Shown here: in pieces, positions 28,380 to 36,586 of the stretch
Position numbering within the stretch: position 1 is the stretch's first letter
Layout: each line of letters opens with the position of its first letter
From: Kineococcus sp. NBC_00420
Lineage (GTDB): Bacteria; Actinomycetota; Actinomycetes; Actinomycetales; Kineococcaceae
Length of the DNA: 64,000 nt
Direction: 5' to 3'
NCBI RefSeq assembly: GCF_036021035.1
Contig: NZ_CP107930.1
Coordinates: 1,674,001-1,738,000, forward strand
Notes under the pieces: generated by a model
What the model was told of the DNA's origin: nothing
The model's input: the letters and a program-made list of their open reading frames with translations, nothing else
The model's database searches: none
Program-made: the position numbers and the translations under genes

Positions 28380-30719
28380 TCAGCTCGTCGCGACGGCGTG
28401 CGCGGGGAGTTCCGCGCGGACGGTGCGGGCGGCCTCGACGAGGTTGCGCAGCGACTCGGTGGTCTCGGCGTAGCCACGGGTCTTGAGGCCGCAGTCCGGG
28501 TTCACCCAGACCTGACGCGCCGGGACCGCGGCGACGGCGGCGCGCAGCAACCCGGCGACCTCCTCGGTCGAGGGAACGCGCGGCGAGTGGATGTCGTAGA
28601 CCCCCGGCCCGATGCCCCGCGCGAAACCGGCCCGCGCGATGTCGCCGAGGACCTCCATGCGCGAGCGTACCGCCTCGATGCTCGTGACGTCCGCGTCGAG
28701 GCCGTCGATCGCGTCGATGACCTCGCCGAACTCCGAGTAGCAGAGGTGGGTGTGGATCTGCGTCGCGTCGGCGGCACCGGCCGTCGCCAGGTGGAACGAG
28801 TTCACCGACCAGTCCAGGTAGGCGGGCTGGTCCTGGGTGCGCAGGGGCAGCAGCTCCCGCAGCGCGGGTTCGTCGACCTGGACGATCCCGATGCCGGCGG
28901 CCTCGAGGTCGCTGACCTCGTCGCGCAGCGCCAGGGCGACCTGGCGGGCGGTGTCGCCCAGCGGCTGGTCGTCGCGGACGAAGGACCAGGCGAGGATCGT
29001 CACCGGGCCGGTCAGCATGCCCTTGACGGGCTTCGTCGTGCGCGTCTTCGTGTACCGGCTCCAGGGCACGGTGATCGGCGCCGGACGGACGACGTCACCC
29101 CAGAGGATGGGCGGGCGCACGCAGCGCGACCCGTAGGACTGGACCCAGCCGTGGGCGGTGACGGCGAAACCGTCGAGCTGCTCGGCGAAGTACTGGACCA
29201 TGTCGTTGCGCTCGGGTTCCCCGTGCACGACGACGTCGAGCCCGAGTTCCTCCTGCAGGTCCACGACGCGGTCGATCTCCGCCTTGAGGAACTCCTCGTA
29301 GGCGGCCTCCGTGAGCTCCCCCCGCGTCCACGCGGCCCGCGCCCTGCGGATCTCGCTCGTCTGCGGGAACGAGCCGATCGTCGTCGTCGGCAGCGCCGGC
29401 AGACCCAGCGCCTGCTCCTGCGCGAGGCGGCGCACGGCGTAGTCGCTGCGGCCGAAGGCCTCCGGGGTGAGCGCTGCGAGCCGGTCGCGCACCTCGGGAC
29501 GGACGACGCCGGGGGCACCGACGCGGTCGGCCCGGGCCTGCGCCGACGCGGTGAGCTCCGTCTGGACGGACGCCGCGTCCCCCAGCGCCTTGCCCAGGAC
29601 GACGACCTCGGCGACCTTCTGGTCGGCGAAGGCGAGCCAGCCGCGCAGGCGCTCGTCGAGGGTGGTCTCGCGGGTCACGTCGTGCGGGACGTGCAGCAGG
29701 GAGGTCGACGTCCCGGCGACGACGTGGGCGGCGGAACCCTCGAGGGTCCGCAGCCGGGCCAGCGCCTCGACGAGATCGGCGCGCCAGACGTTGTGCCCGT
29801 CGACGACGCCGCCGACGACCGTCTTGCCGTGCAGCAGTTCCGGACGCGCCGGCGTCGCGCCGCGGACGAGGTCGAGGGCGAGACCCTCGACCGCCGTGGC
29901 GACCAGGGGTTCCAGGAGATCACCCGGGTCGCCGTAGGGCGTCGCGACCAGCAGACGCGGACGGCCCTCGAGCGCCGCGAGGCGGTCGTAGGCGCGGCGG
30001 ACGAGGTCGGCGAGACCTTCGACGCCGTTCGTCGCGGAGTCGCTGACGAGCGCCGGTTCGTCCAGCTGCACCCACTCCGCCCCCGCTGCCGCGTAGGCGG
30101 CGAGGAGTTCCTCGTAGGCGCCGAGCAGGTCGTCGAGCCGGGAGATCGGGGCGAAACCCGCCGGGGCGTCGTCGGTCGCCTTGGCCAGCAGCAGGAACGT
30201 CACGGGCCCGACCACGACGGGACGGGTCAGGAACCCGTCGGAGAGCGCCTCGGCGAACTCCCGCACCCCACGGTCGTCGGCGAACCGGAAGGCCGTCGAC
30301 GGGGAGATCTCGGGGACGAGGTAGTGGTAGTTGGTGTCGAACCACTTCGTCATCTCCAGCGGGGCGTCCGCACCGCGACCGCGGGCGATCGTGGAGTACC
30401 CCACGAGGTCGACGCGGCCGTCCTCGCCCACGACGTCGGCGAAGCGCGGCGGGACGGCGCCGAGGGCGACGGCGGCGTCGAGCACCTGGTCGTAGGCCGA
30501 GAACGCGCACGGGATCGACGCGTCGTGCGCCGGCAGGCCGAGGGAGTTCAGCCGGCGGACCGTGGCGGCACGGACCCTGGCCAGGGCGGCCTCGGTGGTG
30601 TCGCGGTCGGCGCGACCGGCCCACAGGGCCTCGAGGGCCTTCTTGGCCTCGCGGTCGGCGCCGATGCGGGGGTAGCCGAGGACGGTGGCGGTCCAGGTGG
30701 GGAAGTTCTCGGTGCTCAC
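28380..30719 (-). CDS. metE: cobalamin-independent methionine synthase MetE
   Basis: A 779-residue zinc enzyme that transfers the methyl group of 5-methyltetrahydropteroyltri-glutamate to homocysteine to make methionine. The N-terminal half begins [20 protein letters not shown]. The C-terminal catalytic half has [39 protein letters not shown] and the zinc-ligand motifs [12 protein letters not shown] and [13 protein letters not shown] (Cys about 743). Length is standard (about 750-790). The GTG at 30719 overlaps the metF stop by 4 bases, so both proteins come from one message under the SAM-I riboswitch at 31.7 kb. There is no obvious B12 riboswitch. Confidence 0.95.
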
Positions 30720-31657
30720 GGGGTGGGACCTCCTACCGCAGCGATGCGGCTCTGGATGGATCGGGGCAGGTTCAGGTGGTCGAGCAGGTCGAGCGCGGGT
30801 TCCGCCGCGTTGAACGTGTAGAGGTGCAGTCCGGGGGCGCCGGCGTCGAGCAGTCCCGCCGCGAGTCCCGACGAGAACGCCGTCGACGCCCGGCGGCGCT
30901 GGGCGGTGTCGTCGGTGTCGAGCGCCGCGAGCAGCTGTTCCGGGGCCGGGACACCGGCCAGCTCGCCGATGCGCTGCAACCGGCGGGCGTCGTCCGTCAC
31001 GGCGATGCCGGGCAGCAGCGGGATGCTCACCCCGGCGGCGCGCGCCCGGCGCACGAAGGTCGCGTACTCCTCCGCCGAGAACGTCACCTGGCAGATCGCG
31101 AAGTGCGCACCGGCGTCCTGCTTGGCGCGCAGGGCCGCCAGTTCCGCGTCGCGACCGCGGGGGAAGGCCGCCACGGCGAGGGTCAGGGGACCCTCGTCGA
31201 CGGGGACGCGGCCGCCCCGCAGCGCGGAGCGCCGCCGGTCGGCGACCTGGAGCAGTTCGACCAGGTCCCGCGCGGTCGCCAGACCGTCGGGGTGCGGGGT
31301 CCAGTCCGCGCTCCCGACCGGCGGGTCGCCCCGCAGCGCGAGGACGTTGCGGACACCGGCGTCGAGGAACTCGCCGGCGAGTTCCACCACCTCACGTCGC
31401 GAGGACCCCACGCACGTCAGGTGGGCCATCGCCGGCACGGCCGTCGAACCCAGGACGTGGGCCAGCAGTTCCCGACTCGGTCCCCTCGTCGCGCCGGCCG
31501 CCCCGAAGGTGACCGAGACGAAGTCGGGGTGCGTGTCGAGGAGATCGGAGAGCCTGCGCCACAACGACTCCCGCCCGATCTCGGAACGGGGCGGGAAGAG
31601 TTCGAAACTGACGGTGGGCCTCCCGGTCGCGGCGGCGACGAGGGGAGCCAGCGTCAT
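30716..31657 (-). CDS. metF: 5,10-methylenetetrahydrofolate reductase MetF
   Basis: A 313-residue FAD-dependent TIM-barrel enzyme that reduces methylene- to methyltetrahydrofolate, the methyl donor for MetE. Landmarks are [11 protein letters not shown] with the catalytic Glu (about 18), [37 protein letters not shown] and [12 protein letters not shown]. The length is typical of bacterial MetF (about 290-315). The ATG at 31657 follows a leader of about 60 bases after the SAM-I riboswitch. The coupling to metE by a 4-base overlap puts substrate supply and methionine synthesis under a single switch. Confidence 0.95.
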
Positions 31658-31719
31658 CGCGGCCGGCCCCGGTCCGGAACCGGGTACGCGTCAGGAACAT
31701 CGGTGGGGCGCATCACGAA

Positions 31720-31810
31720 CTCCATCGGCCTGGCTTTAGCACCCTCGCCCGGGCTCGGGGGGTTGCTGCGGCGTCGTCGAGCCAGGACTCTCGGCCGCTC
31801 TGGATGGTGT
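31720..31810 (-). ncRNA. SAM-I (S-box) riboswitch ahead of metF-metE
   Basis: On the minus strand the P1 stem is CCATC (31807-31803 as template GATGG) with GATGG (31726-31722 as template CCATC). Inside are the S-box core elements AGAGCGGCCGAGAG, CCTGGCTCGACGACGCCGCA, GCAACC and GGTGCTAAAGCCAGG. It lies upstream of metF, so high S-adenosylmethionine should switch off metF-metE. The mode (terminator or sequestration of the start) is not resolved from the sequence. Confidence 0.85.
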
Positions 31811-31966
31811 TCACCGAATGTAGACCGGGGTCGACGCGATCCACAAGTGCTGTTCCGGGGTTCCCCCGAACGGAGGAACTACCCGACACGTGGGGTTCTG
31901 GAGGGAGTTCCGACGGGTTCGCGACACGCCGATCTTGCTCAGCGGGGTCCGACGTGACAACCTCAG

Positions 31967-32080
31967 CGCAGGTCATGAGCGCCAGCGACAAGCCCCGGCT
32001 CGCTGGCCGGCAACCCTCCCTCCGCGGCGGGGTGCCCCGGGTGACGACCTGGTCGACGCCGCAGTGGCGCCGGCAAGCGC
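31967..32080 (+). ncRNA. SAM-IV riboswitch ahead of the class V aminotransferase gene
   Basis: P1 is CAGGTC (31969-31974) with GACCTG (32046-32051). P2 is GCCAGCG (31981-31987) with CGCTGGC (32001-32007) around the loop ACAAGCCCCGGCT, which can form a pseudoknot with CCGGG at 32037. The core GGCAACCCTCC and TGCCCCGGGTGACGACC follow, and a 3' arm ends in GGCAAGCGCGG. This is the actinobacterial SAM-IV arrangement. The element is 62-175 bases upstream of the GTG at 32142 and should lower expression when S-adenosylmethionine is plentiful. Confidence 0.85.
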
Positions 32081-32141
32081 GGACCTCGCCGGGGCGATCC
32101 CGGTCCTCCCGGCAGGGTCCAGTTCCTCCAGGAGACTCCTC

Positions 32142-33488
32142 GTGACGCTCAGCACCCTCTCCCCCCTCCGCTGCCCGGCGCCCGTCGCGCCGCTGCTGCC
32201 CGTGGTCGGCCGGGACACCCGCGTCCCGCTCGCCCAGGGCGGGTCGACCACCTACGCGAACCTGGACAACGCCGCCAGCGCACCCGCCCTCACCTCGGTC
32301 GCCACCCGCGTCGCCCAGGTCCTCCCCCACTACGCCAGCGTCCACCGCGGCGCCGGGTACCTCTCGCGCGTCTCCACCGCCCTGTTCGAGCAGGCCCGGG
32401 CCGAGGTCGGGACCTTCCTGGGGGCACGCCCCGACGACGTCGTCGTCTTCACCCGGAGCACGACCGACGCGCTCGACCTGCTCGCCCGGGCGGTCCCGCA
32501 GGGCTCCAGGGTCCTGGTGGCCGACGTCGAGCACCACGCGAACCTGTTGTCGTGGCAGCGCTCAGCCCTGACCACGGTCCTGCGCGGCGGGTCGGACGCG
32601 GAGGAGACCGCGACGCTGCTGGAGGCCGAGCTCGCCCGCGGCGGGTACGCGCTGCTGGCCGTCGCCGGTGCCTCCAACGTGACCGGTGAGGTGCTGCCGC
32701 TGCGTCGGCTGGCCCGGGCCGCGCACGCGGCCGGCGCCCGCATCGCCGTCGACGGGGCGCAGCTGCTCCCCCACCGCCGGGTGGACCTCGGTCGCGACGG
32801 GATCGACTGGATCGCGCTGTCCGGGCACAAGCTCTACGCCCCCTACGGAGCGGGCGCGCTCGTCGGTCGTCGCGACTGGCTCGACGCCGCTGATCCCTAC
32901 CTCGCGGGTGGGGGCGCCACCCTCGACGTGCGCCACGACGCGGTGCGGTGGGCCACCGGGCCCGACCGCCACGAGGCGGGTTCCCCGAACGTGCTCGGCG
33001 CCGTCGCCCTCGCCCAGGCCTGCAGCACGCTCGCGACGCTGGCCCCCGGAGCGCTCGAAGCGCACGAGGAGGCGCTGCGCGAACGGCTCGTCGGCGGGCT
33101 GACGGCGCTGGCCGGCGTCGAGGTCGTGCGCCCGCACCCCGACGACGCCGTGGGGGTCGTGACCTTCACCGTCCCCGGTCGCTCGGTCTCCGAGGTCGCG
33201 GCCTTCCTCTCGGCCGAGCACGGGATCGGTGTGCGCGACGGACGGTTCTGCGCCCACCGGTTCGCCGACTCCCTCGGTCTGGCCGACGGCGGTCTGAGGG
33301 TCTCCACCGGGGTCGGAACGGGATCGGCCGAGGTCGAACGGCTGCTGGCCGCGGTCGAGCAGTTCGTCGGTGCCGGGCCGGAGCTCGAGTACGGGATCGT
33401 CGCGGGGCACTGGGGTCCCACGACCGACGCTCGCCCGGAACCCGCGTCCTTCCTGCCCGCGCCCGGTGCGGACGCGGACCTGGGGTGA
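32142..33488 (+). CDS. class V aminotransferase, SufS/CsdA-like cysteine desulfurase family
   Basis: A 448-residue PLP enzyme. The Schiff-base Lys is 230 in IALSGHKLYAPYGAGAL, with His 131 (DVEHHANLLSW), Asp 204 (IAVDGAQLLPH) and the entry motif LDNAASAPAL. The mobile-loop cysteine that carries persulfide in desulfurases is present (GRFCAHRF, Cys 370). The N-terminus has about 37 extra residues, and the C-terminal tail (from about 415) is Pro/Ala-rich. The GTG at 32142 has AGGAG upstream. It is followed by a rhodanese gene and preceded by a SAM-IV riboswitch, so it is a sulfur-handling enzyme tied to methionine status. The actual substrate, cysteine or another sulfur compound, is not certain. 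Confidence 0.8.
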   Translation: MTLSTLSPLRCPAPVAPLLPVVGRDTRVPLAQGGSTTYANLDNAASAPALTSVATRVAQVLPHYASVHRGAGYLSRVSTALFEQARAEVGTFLGARPDDVVVFTRSTTDALDLLARAVPQGSRVLVADVEHHANLLSWQRSALTTVLRGGSDAEETATLLEAELARGGYALLAVAGASNVTGEVLPLRRLARAAHAAGARIAVDGAQLLPHRRVDLGRDGIDWIALSGHKLYAPYGAGALVGRRDWLDAADPYLAGGGATLDVRHDAVRWATGPDRHEAGSPNVLGAVALAQACSTLATLAPGALEAHEEALRERLVGGLTALAGVEVVRPHPDDAVGVVTFTVPGRSVSEVAAFLSAEHGIGVRDGRFCAHRFADSLGLADGGLRVSTGVGTGSAEVERLLAAVEQFVGAGPELEYGIVAGHWGPTTDARPEPASFLPAPGADADLG

Positions 33489-33571
33489 GCACCTCGCCGA
33501 CGCCTCAGCCAGCAGCGACGACGGACTCGCGCGATCGCCGGGGCCGACCGCACGAACCGAGGAGACACGAC

Positions 33572-33946
33572 GTGAGCGACACCCCCGCAGCACCCCAGGC
33601 ACCGCTCGTCGACGCGGAGACCGCCGGGCGCGCCGTCGCCGCCGGTGCGCTGTTCGTCGACGTCCGCAGCGACGCCGGGCGGGCCGCCGCCGGCGACCTG
33701 CCGCAGGCCGTCGTCGTGGCCAAGACCCAGGTGGCGGAGAAGTTCGCCCTCGGTTCCGACACCGCGCTGGCGGAACTCACCGGGAAGGACCAGGAGATCG
33801 TCGTGATCTGCGGTTCCCCCGCGGGCTCCGGCCCCGTCACTGCCGAACTGCTGGCGGCCGGCTTCACCGACGTCGTGCAGGTCGACGGCGGTTTCCCGGC
33901 CTGGAAGGCCGCGGGCCTGACCGTGGGCGAACCCGCCCAGACCTGA
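33572..33946 (+). CDS. rhodanese-like sulfurtransferase
   Basis: A 124-residue single-domain rhodanese. The active-site Cys 80 lies in EIVVICGSPAGSGPVTAELL, a six-residue loop with Gly-Ser-Pro-Ala-Gly-Ser. The domain starts with GALFVDVRSDAGRAAAGDLP and ends DVVQVDGGFPAWKAAGL, all typical. The GTG at 33572 has GGAGAC upstream. It follows the class V aminotransferase gene by 83 bases on the same strand. It probably accepts persulfide sulfur from that enzyme, under the same SAM-IV control if the message is shared. Confidence 0.85.
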   Translation: MSDTPAAPQAPLVDAETAGRAVAAGALFVDVRSDAGRAAAGDLPQAVVVAKTQVAEKFALGSDTALAELTGKDQEIVVICGSPAGSGPVTAELLAAGFTDVVQVDGGFPAWKAAGLTVGEPAQT

Positions 33947-34206: not shown

Positions 34207-34238
34207 GGTCGCCTCCTCGTCGATCGGTGGAGAGCACT

Positions 34239-35327
34239 GTGACACAGACGACGGCTGCCGTACCCACCACTCAGGAGATTTCCGTGCCGCCCCCCTTCCA
34301 CGTGTTCCTCGACGTCGACGGCGGCGGGTGGCACCCCGCGGCCTGGCGCCGCTCCCGGGTCTCCCCCGACGCCGTGTTCTCCCCCGCGCGGTTGAAGGAG
34401 TTCGCCGTCACCGCGCAGGCCCAGGGCCTCACGGGACTCACCTTCGAGGACTCCACGCTGCCGGACCCCCGCAACCCCCACGGACACCTGGACGCGGTGC
34501 AGCGGGCGGCCTTCCTCGCCGGGACCACCGACACGATCGGTCTGCTGCCGGTCGCCGCGACCACCTACTCCGAACCGTTCCACGTGGCGGCGCAGATCGC
34601 GTCGCTGGACCACTCCAGCGCCGGCCGAGCCGGCTGGATCGCGACGACGTCCACCCCCGCCGTGGCCCGGACGGTGAACCTCCCCGTGCTCGACGACCCG
34701 CAGGCGGAACTCACCGACGTGGTCGGGGCCGTACGGAGGTTGTGGGACTCCTGGGAGGACGACGCGGTGGTCCGCGACGTCGCCACGGGACGCTACGTCG
34801 ACCGCGACCGGTTGCACCACGTCGACGTCGTCGCCACCAACTTCTCGGTCAAGGGCCCGCTCACCGTGCCCCGTCCCCCGCAGGGGCAGCCGGTCGTGGC
34901 CGCCCACGAACGCGACCTCCTCGACCCGGGCGTGGTCGACGTCGTCCTCACGGGCAGCGAGCGGACCCGGCGCAGCGCCGGTGGTCCGCTGGTCGTGCTC
35001 GAGGTCGAGTTCGCCCTCGACACCGCGGCCGCCTCGGGTGCGCAGCGGGTCGAGGCGCTCGACGCCGACGCCCCGGCTCCCGCACGGGGCCGGCTGCGCT
35101 GGACGGGGTCCGGTGAAGGCTTCGCGCGGTACCTCTCCGGTCTCGCGGGTTCCGTCGACGGTGTCCGGCTGCACGCCGCCGTCCTCGACGAGGACCTCCG
35201 CACGCTGCTGCGCACCACGTTCCCCGCCCTGCGCGTCGCCCGGCTGCTGCGACCACCCGCCGCCGGTGCGACGTTGCGCACCACCCTCGGCCGTCCCCGG
35301 CCGGTCAACCAGTTCGCGACGGCCTGA
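34239..35327 (+). CDS. luciferase-like flavin monooxygenase (LLM class), diverged
   Basis: A 362-residue TIM-barrel protein of the bacterial luciferase-like superfamily. It has HVFLDVDGGGWHPAAWRRS, the second-strand LTGLTFEDSTLPDPRNPHGH, then IGLLPVAATTYSEPFHVAAQ, DHSSAGRAGWIATTS and LPVPRPPQ-like PLTVPRPPQGQPVVAA. Later parts are more variable than in standard members. The GTG at 34239 has a well-placed GGAG and is preferred over a GTG at 34227. It is followed after 8 bases by a second, more typical LLM gene. The two may form a two-component or paralogous oxygenase for organosulfur or other compounds. Confidence 0.7.
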   Translation: MTQTTAAVPTTQEISVPPPFHVFLDVDGGGWHPAAWRRSRVSPDAVFSPARLKEFAVTAQAQGLTGLTFEDSTLPDPRNPHGHLDAVQRAAFLAGTTDTIGLLPVAATTYSEPFHVAAQIASLDHSSAGRAGWIATTSTPAVARTVNLPVLDDPQAELTDVVGAVRRLWDSWEDDAVVRDVATGRYVDRDRLHHVDVVATNFSVKGPLTVPRPPQGQPVVAAHERDLLDPGVVDVVLTGSERTRRSAGGPLVVLEVEFALDTAAASGAQRVEALDADAPAPARGRLRWTGSGEGFARYLSGLAGSVDGVRLHAAVLDEDLRTLLRTTFPALRVARLLRPPAAGATLRTTLGRPRPVNQFATA

Positions 35328-35335
35328 GGAGTCCC

Positions 35336-36586
35336 GTGACCGACCTGCGCTACCCGAACGCCGTCGTCCACTTCGGCGTCTTCTTCCAGGGCGTCAACCA
35401 CAGCACCATCTGGTCGGACCCCCGCAGCGGTTCCCAGATGAACCACTCCACCTTCACGCAGCTGATCCGGACCGCCGAACGCGGACTGCTCGACGCGTTC
35501 TTCCTCGGCGAGGGCCTCCGCCTGCGCGAACAGCGGGGCAGGATCCACGACCTCGACGTCGTCGGGCGACCCGACGCGCTGACCGAACTCGCCACGCTGG
35601 CGGGTCTGACCGACCGCATCGGTCTGGTCGCCACCCAGAACACCACCTACAACGACCCCGCCGACCTGGCCCGCCGTCTCGCGTCCCTGGACGTCCTCTC
35701 CGGTGGTCGCGCCGCGTGGAACGTCGTCACGACGGACAACGCCTGGACCGGGGCGAACTTCCGCCGGGGCGGCTACCTCGACCACGCCGACCGCTACGAG
35801 CGGGCCGAACGCTTCGTGAACCTGGCCCGACGGGTCTGGGACAGCTGGGACGGGTCGGAGTTCGCTCCCGTGGACTCCGACGACGGCTTCTTCGACGTCG
35901 AGATCGCCCCCACCGTCCCCCGCAGCCCGCAGGGTCATCCCGTGATCTTCCAGGCCGGCGACTCACCCACCGGCCGCGACTTCGCCGCCCGCTCGGCCGA
36001 CGTGATCTTCTCCGCGCACGGGAGCGACCGCCACGACGCGCTGGCGTTCGCCGACGACGTCCGCCGCCGCGTCGTGGCGGCGGGTCGCCCCGAGGACGAC
36101 GTCCTCACCTTCCCGGGGACCCAGATCGTCGTCGCCGACACCGAGGGCGAGGTGGAGGAGAAGGCCCGTTGGGTCCTGGAGCAGCAGGTGACCCCCGCGC
36201 CCGCGCACGACCCCGTCATCGCGGACATCGACGGGACCCGGGGCGCCGCGCGACAGGGTCACGACCCCCGGGCGATCGCCCAGGAGTGGCGCCGGGTGGC
36301 GGAGGAGAACAAGTTCTCGCTGCGCGAACTCGTGCTGCACACCTCGGCCCGGCGCGGTTTCGCCGGTACGGCCTCGCAGTTGGCCGACGAACTGACCCTC
36401 TGGGTACGCAGCGGCGCCAGCAGCGGGTTCAACGTCACGCCGTTCCTCGTCCCCAGCGGCCTGGACGACATCGTGGACCAGCTCGTCCCGGCCCTGCAGG
36501 AACGGGACGCCTACCCGACCGCGTACGTCGGGACCACGCTGCGCGAGCACCTGGGTCTGCGACCTCCGCTCACGCGTCGCCGCTGA
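35336..36586 (+). CDS. NtaA/DszA-family FMN-dependent monooxygenase
   Basis: A 416-residue LLM-class enzyme of the NtaA/SnaA/DszA group, which uses FMNH2 and O2 to cleave C-N or C-S bonds. Family markers are VNHSTIWSDPRSGSQMNHST, GLLDAFFLGEGLRLREQ, LVATQNTTYNDPADLARRLA, LDVLSGGRAAWNVVTTDN and HPVIFQAGDSPTGRDFAARS. The GTG start has GAGGAG upstream. It overlaps the convergent ATP-grasp gene by 17 bases at its 3' end. Lying 1.4 kb from a SAM-controlled sulfur operon, it may liberate sulfur from an organosulfur compound; this is an inference. No flavin reductase is seen next to it. Confidence 0.8.
   Translation: MTDLRYPNAVVHFGVFFQGVNHSTIWSDPRSGSQMNHSTFTQLIRTAERGLLDAFFLGEGLRLREQRGRIHDLDVVGRPDALTELATLAGLTDRIGLVATQNTTYNDPADLARRLASLDVLSGGRAAWNVVTTDNAWTGANFRRGGYLDHADRYERAERFVNLARRVWDSWDGSEFAPVDSDDGFFDVEIAPTVPRSPQGHPVIFQAGDSPTGRDFAARSADVIFSAHGSDRHDALAFADDVRRRVVAAGRPEDDVLTFPGTQIVVADTEGEVEEKARWVLEQQVTPAPAHDPVIADIDGTRGAARQGHDPRAIAQEWRRVAEENKFSLRELVLHTSARRGFAGTASQLADELTLWVRSGASSGFNVTPFLVPSGLDDIVDQLVPALQERDAYPTAYVGTTLREHLGLRPPLTRRR

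Follow-up and report, generated by a model that had tools for sequence, protein, structure and literature searches.

Two SAM riboswitch classes stand back to back in a single intergenic region of Kineococcus sp. NBC_00420. The leaders to which they belong, each with a probable promoter of its own in the 160-bp gap between the aptamers, probably sense SAM and repress divergent sulfur operons when it is abundant, with metF being reached by a relay through a short upstream open reading frame (uORF). A cmscan search of the entire window (the whole 64-kb stretch of DNA that was analyzed) against the 4,227 families of Rfam 15 returned three matches at gathering level, two of which are the riboswitches claimed in the initial annotation. 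RF00162 (SAM-I, or S-box) covers positions 31719 to 31810 of the minus strand, ahead of metF (63.0 bits; E = 2.8e-12; gathering threshold, 44.4), whereas RF00634 (SAM-IV) covers positions 31971 to 32085 of the plus strand and leads the class V aminotransferase and rhodanese genes (107.1 bits; E = 9.4e-19; gathering threshold, 38). The alignments span the whole models (1 to 108 and 1 to 116, respectively), and both matches were recovered again on positions 31400 to 32400 with permissive filters. The central observation is thus confirmed, since both families proposed for the Infernal check score above gathering on opposite strands. The measured gap of 160 bp is close to the previous estimate of about 155 bases, although the exact figure differs. 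The description of the two architectures as unrelated does not hold: RF00162 and RF00634 both belong to Rfam clan CL00012 and have a common core. According to the SAM-IV cryo-EM report, the ligand pocket is likewise common and the peripheral parts are distinct (PMC6890682). As for SAM being the single controller of both arms, a SAM aptamer of a different class does lie at the 5′ end of each operon, and on this ground control of the two divergent sulfur arms by one metabolite is plausible. The pair combines known parts in a new way and, taken alone, is neat but modest. The initial annotation mentions neither the uORF that lies between the SAM-I aptamer and metF, nor the missing helix P4, nor the frequency with which the pair recurs.

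Both flanking gene sets look like sulfur metabolism operons, the extents of which are given here as predicted. The minus-strand set appears to make methionine. It comprises metF (methylenetetrahydrofolate reductase; 30716 to 31657; PF02219, E = 9.5e-58) and metE (cobalamin-independent methionine synthase; 28380 to 30719; TIGR01371, 940.7 bits against a cut-off of 929.95; PF01717/PF08267), which overlap by 4 nt. The plus-strand set starts with a class V aminotransferase or cysteine desulfurase-like gene (32142 to 33488; PF00266, E = 2.8e-73), the product of which has the SufS family as its best NCBIfam match at 253.6 bits, under the cut-off of 475.1. It continues on the same strand with a rhodanese-like protein (33566 to 33946, start approximate; PF00581, 43.7 bits; cut-off, 22.2), a luciferase-like monooxygenase (34227 to 35327; PF00296, 64.7 bits; cut-off, 27.9), and an FMN-dependent monooxygenase of the NtaA/DmoA family (35336 to 36586; TIGR03860, 319.8 bits; cut-off, 279.7; PF00296). 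The plus-side operon probably releases sulfur from organic compounds.

The SAM-I aptamer retains its core and lacks one canonical helix. In the Rfam alignment, P1 has one A-A mismatch, P2 has an internal loop of 3/6 nt of the kink-turn type, and P3 is present; there is one more non-standard pair, and the core motifs AGAG, GCAACC, and GGUGC are intact. No P4 helix is found in the SAM-I element of the window, where only 12 nt (TAAAGCCAGGCC) separate the J3/4 GGTGC from the 3′ strand of P1; P4 is part of canonical SAM-I at that position (PMC6890682). Among the 90 SAM-I sites found in Kineococcaceae, all have a GATGG-type P1 3′ strand no more than 16 nt from the core GGTGC, and the distance between the two is 12 to 14 nt in 87 (in 89 with another anchor). 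It is 12 to 13 nt at 28 SAM-I sites from three further families (those beside pairs, from a total of 128 sites), as well as in 14 of the 16 named mixed loci that were checked among 40; the remaining 2 (L130 and L141) are without the GATGG anchor. Because 12 to 14 nt stand where canonical SAM-I has P4, we refer to the element as a P4-less variant of SAM-I, the class to which Rfam assigns it. The SAM-I/IV variant model RF01725 had no match at an E value of 0.001 in the whole genome, and the P2 internal loop is present. Across six congeners, the mean column identity of the aptamer is 99%. The P4-less aptamer is predicted to bind SAM, and these counts suggest that actinobacterial SAM-I aptamers may do without P4.

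SAM-I appears to act on metF via a tiny upstream reading frame, which seems more unusual than the pair itself. The 3′ strand of P1 (GATGGAGT; 31719 to 31726, minus strand), as paired in the Rfam alignment, contains the Shine-Dalgarno (SD) motif GGAG (31723 to 31720). The ATG of a 19-codon uORF (31654 to 31713, minus strand) follows 6 nt past this motif, and its TGA stop and the metF start codon share the overlap ATGA. By inspection, metF itself has no good SD sequence, although it could possess a weak start of its own. At each of the nine SAM-I-metF sites of Kineococcus, a uORF of 18 to 22 codons overlaps metF as NTGA, while the sequence from the SD to metF varies and the uORF peptide is poorly conserved. 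The same overlap occurs in a genome of the sister genus (G011), with an 18-aa peptide, which makes 10 of 10 SAM-I-metF sites in Kineococcaceae; a search for the MetF N terminus behind the 90 SAM-I sites returned exactly those ten sites and no others. The G011 uORF (L242, C4 122255) reads MNCTCPAAGRACPREVRP, with three Cys residues and a 4-nt overlap with metF, whereas the window uORF has no Cys.

In the proposed mechanism, high SAM would close the P1 helix of the P4-less SAM-I, and with it the 3′ strand carrying the uORF SD. At low SAM, P1 would open and the 19-codon uORF would be translated; the ribosome would then terminate at the ATGA overlap, reinitiate on metF and, via the next 4-nt overlap, reach metE. 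Translation of the uORF, reinitiation, and the OFF logic of the SAM-I leader are all predicted here from the layout of the leader. ViennaRNA folding gave an ambiguous picture that speaks neither for nor against the switch. With P1 open, the SAM-I SD was unpaired with a probability of 0.05 to 0.54 in four leaders (0.05 in that of the window), and P1 was missing from the minimum-energy fold of each of the four full leaders; the folds show no clean switch. The parts of this relay have published precedents. The B12 riboswitch of Mycobacterium tuberculosis ppe2 likewise controls a short ORF (uPPE2) that hands over to the gene by reinitiation at an AUGA overlap (PMC11260477), and the window uORF shares the two marks of that relay, namely, an SD inside the switch and an NTGA overlap with the gene. 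There, however, the ligand is B12 and the aptamer is another one, whereas the Kineococcus case concerns SAM-I and metF and is a prediction only. An Mbox switch has also been described to control a uORF (PMC12810186). A ribosome binding site within the 3′ side of P1, occluded directly upon P1 formation, is a described SAM-I mechanism (PMC2258182), from which the Kineococcus leader differs in that the first start is that of the uORF and the aptamer lacks P4. If true, this direct hand-over from a riboswitch to a uORF or leader peptide would place SAM-I among the small number of riboswitches for which action via a uORF is known.

The coupling at metF belongs to a broader pattern of start codons behind SAM-I. 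At all 90 family sites a start codon lies 3 to 13 nt past P1; when the 60 nt behind P1 are shuffled, such a start appears in 25%. The ORF so opened is long at 39 sites (one runs off its contig), the Kineococcus metF uORF at 9, and a short leader at 42, a set that includes the G011 metF uORF. Cys is present in 40 of these 42 leaders and a VDL-type core in 41 (e.g., L201, L190, and L217). A pattern of 18 to 60 codons with R..VD[L/F/H] and Cys, which was drawn up after the peptides had been seen, is found at 39 of the 90 sites, in neither of the other frames, and in 13 of 18,000 Markov-resampled sequences. Matches to the NCBIfam family NF042934 (putative leader peptide; cis_reg_atten) at an E value of 0.01 or better were obtained for 28 of 40 distinct leaders that are 20 aa or longer; the consensus over the 40 is LxRRRHVDLxRxxSxxCR. 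When seven leaders, including one from G106 outside the family, were scanned singly against the 27-bit cut-off, two passed (39.5 and 30.9 bits), three fell below it (16.3 to 20.7 bits), and two had no match. The NF042934 scan took peptides of at least 20 residues, and the window uORF has 19; its 22-aa relative, the metF uORF of G009, had no match. Named by eye, the genes behind the leaders resemble MetY, thiosulfate sulfurtransferase, cysteine synthase, and transporter binding proteins. A minority of the 46 SAM-IV sites of the family are alike, with leaders of the RRHVDL or RRHIDL type at four and Cys peptides of 8 to 9 aa at five metN-type loci. In the latter, all five of the metN-type/monooxygenase pairs (L048, L057, L058, L062, and L064), the Cys peptide lies 10 to 12 nt past SAM-IV, as in MTKACRRSR or MSHQTCRR.

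These patterns would fit a design in which SAM-I is placed in series with a Cys leader peptide, so that an operon opens only if SAM is scarce and a shortage of cysteine also stalls the ribosome. We judge the chances that Kineococcaceae use such an AND gate to be evenly balanced, and the same holds for the metF uORF of the window as its coupling variant. Mycobacterial Cys-rich leader peptides (PMC4633059), like members of NF042934, are likewise short ORFs ahead of sulfur genes with Cys near the C terminus; in Kineococcaceae, by contrast, the leader opens directly behind a SAM-I aptamer at 42 of 90 sites. We found no description of SAM riboswitches gating Cys leader peptides in the open-licence PMC literature. 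If it exists, the arrangement would be a naturally occurring logic gate, with a single leader RNA sensing both SAM and the supply of cysteine.

On the opposite arm, the SAM-IV alignment has a P5 hairpin after P1, in which two positions form a non-standard pair, and no P4. By eye, the CGCGG 3′ of P5 can pair with the CCGCG of the P3 loop as PK-2, whose strands are defined for SAM-IV in PMC6890682. This aptamer is predicted to bind SAM and would control the SufS-like/rhodanese/monooxygenase operon through some expression platform. The SD of the aminotransferase gene (AGGAG; 32130 to 32134, plus strand) lies 7 nt ahead of its GTG, and its accessibility was alike in the two states modelled with ViennaRNA (0.21 to 0.50 and 0.14 to 0.48). 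A GC hairpin between the 3′ end of SAM-IV and the SD is common to the six SAM-IV leaders, with one exchange of G-C for A-T seen by eye in their alignment. Streptomyces lividans also has SAM-IV before a cysteine desulfurase gene, but its SAM-I is listed at another genome position, unlike in the Kineococcus pair (PMC8079986). Two Kineococcus genomes have a second SAM-IV about 1.4 kb downstream of the first, between the aminotransferase and monooxygenase-like genes (L056 and L066).

Alignment of the gap from six congeners showed good conservation only in the blocks adjoining each aptamer, the middle differing in both length and sequence. Candidate promoters were read by eye from these conserved blocks. 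The probable metF promoter (31817 to 31846, minus strand) has a -35 box TTGTGG (31846 to 31841) and a -10 box TACATT (31822 to 31817) separated by 18 nt, and the probable promoter of the SAM-IV operon (31935 to 31963, plus strand) has TTGCTC (31935 to 31940) and CAACCT (31958 to 31963) separated by 17 nt. A scan of positions 31640 to 32160 with the sigma-70 consensus returned no site, and the same interval has no terminator-like sites.

Other accounts of the locus have to be set against a uORF relay under two SAM-responsive leaders. The uORF could be incidental, with metF starting directly and SAM-I working through a distal sequester, as the foldable GC-rich stretch just 5′ of metF and the ambiguous folds would allow. 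However, the SD in P1 lies 6 nt from the start of the uORF, whereas no good SD is seen for metF by inspection, the frame-exact overlap is kept at every one of the ten sites, and the same SD directly faces a long ORF at 39 other family sites, all of which makes the incidental reading unlikely. Loss or change of the ligand by the P4-less SAM-I, leaving SAM to be answered by the SAM-IV arm only, would be in line with the missing helix and the A-A mismatch in P1, but is hardly to be believed of a form that recurs at 87 of 90 family sites (89 with the other anchor) and 28 sites of three other families and of an aptamer 99% conserved across six species. Divergent promoters within one intergenic region might also point to an operator shared by both arms, which would then be coordinated mainly at transcription, with the riboswitches being secondary. 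No such operator is visible, since the gap between the aptamer-side blocks is poorly conserved in the six congeners, and we consider this possibility highly improbable. Regulation by two SAM-sensing leaders remains our preferred functional reading and a likely one.

The pair is not a chance arrangement, as it recurs in five other Kineococcus genomes. Specifically, the metF pair is present in 6 of 11 genomes of the genus, some of the other assemblies being fragmented. The genome of the window has six SAM-I and four SAM-IV elements, and two of the latter face a SAM-I: that of the window and another (3825390/3825670) located between genes that look metN-like and luciferase-like by eye. The 12 Kineococcaceae genomes together contain 90 SAM-I (3 under the cut-off) and 46 SAM-IV elements, which form 16 pairs no more than 500 bp apart. 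Every one of these is head to head; 15 are mixed and 1 is IV/IV. At least 25 further close pairs, again all head to head, occur in 40 other genomes of the order (18 mixed, 4 I/I, and 3 IV/IV); these genomes, in which both classes are present, were selected by hand, in some cases on account of pairs already noticed, and are therefore a biased sample, and their pairs rest on the best 150 of 159 SAM-IV matches, so that pairs with weak scores may have escaped. When 84,980 species were scanned with a DNA pattern, at least 65 loci emerged, a lower bound because the pattern sets both the distance (155 to 215 nt) and the core of SAM-IV, and because entries close to the genome of the window were possibly omitted. 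By cmscan, SAM-I faces SAM-IV at gathering level in 40 of the 65, 1 is IV/IV, and 24 lack a second element at that level. Cellulomonas accounts for 34 of the 40 mixed loci, and the others belong to Sanguibacter suaedae, Kineococcus indalonis, Pengzhenrongella frigida, Cellulosimicrobium cellulans, a Promicromonosporaceae MAG, and Pseudonocardia sp. KRD291. The IV/IV pair of Kineococcaceae genome G007 (L067; C31 54637/54936) lies head to head between genes resembling, by eye, an acyl-CoA dehydrogenase and an MFS transporter.

We found no description of head-to-head SAM-I/SAM-IV pairs in the open-licence PMC literature. The tandem SAM-II/SAM-V and SAM-II/SAM-I-IV arrangements covered in a review similarly bring two structurally different SAM classes close together on sulfur genes (PMC9481103). 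Those tandems act in series on one transcript and one ORF, whereas in the Kineococcus pair each aptamer acts on a separate, divergent transcript. Neither "divergent" nor "opposite" occurs as a word in the text of that review.

The initial annotation had further suggested convergent pressure on a single intergenic region, an evolutionary reading that our counts leave unsupported. Among the matches listed for the 52 genomes, 33 of 41 close pairs are mixed, compared with 21.6 expected when class labels are shuffled within genomes, and only 1 in 10,000 shuffles reached the observed mixing. This apparently strong signal of selection for mixing faded upon collapsing orthologous loci to locus types, 10 of 16 of which are mixed (P of 10 or more, 0.22) against an expectation of about 50% derived from site frequencies (218 SAM-I of 414, among the matches listed). 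Mixing thus does not exceed chance, and same-class pairs exist. The 16 types are a judgement from flanking gene clusters and leader similarity, not a computed grouping. No gene was called on six sides of four pairs (G003 C401, both sides of G094 and of G194, and one of G320), and some calls are in the wrong frame or of a later gene, as happened for metF in G001 and G005. Ten types are mixed, namely, aminotransferase/metF, aminotransferase/rhodanese, metN-type/monooxygenase, the G001-G006 transporter pair, G003 C123, G065-G194-G336, G106 C31, G145 C5-G158, G145 C6, and G389, and the six same-class types are G106 C23, G007, G119, G133 C2, G217-G260, and G318-G362.

Mixing might nonetheless be selected if same-class copies lying head to head about 100 to 200 bp apart formed a long inverted repeat, or if the arms needed different SAM affinities. 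The excess over the shuffled expectation speaks for this, as does mixing in 15 of 16 Kineococcaceae pairs though SAM-I is twice as common there. These loci, however, are not independent, 40 of the 52 genomes were hand-picked, in part for known pairs, four I/I and four IV/IV pairs exist, and the figure for locus types is unremarkable, so that we hold selection for mixing to be distinctly unlikely. On the simplest reading, the class goes with the operon, and pairs arise as sulfur operons become neighbours; the classes would then differ since each operon kept its own switch, and not because mixing was selected. The aminotransferase leader is SAM-IV at all 15 pair loci where this gene was called, whereas its partner varies: metF with SAM-I in Kineococcus, rhodanese with SAM-I in the Cellulomonas group, and a luciferase-like gene (by eye) with SAM-IV in G106. 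Elsewhere in the window, the third Rfam match is an msiK RNA (RF01747; 53674 to 53733, plus strand; 60.6 bits; gathering threshold, 33).
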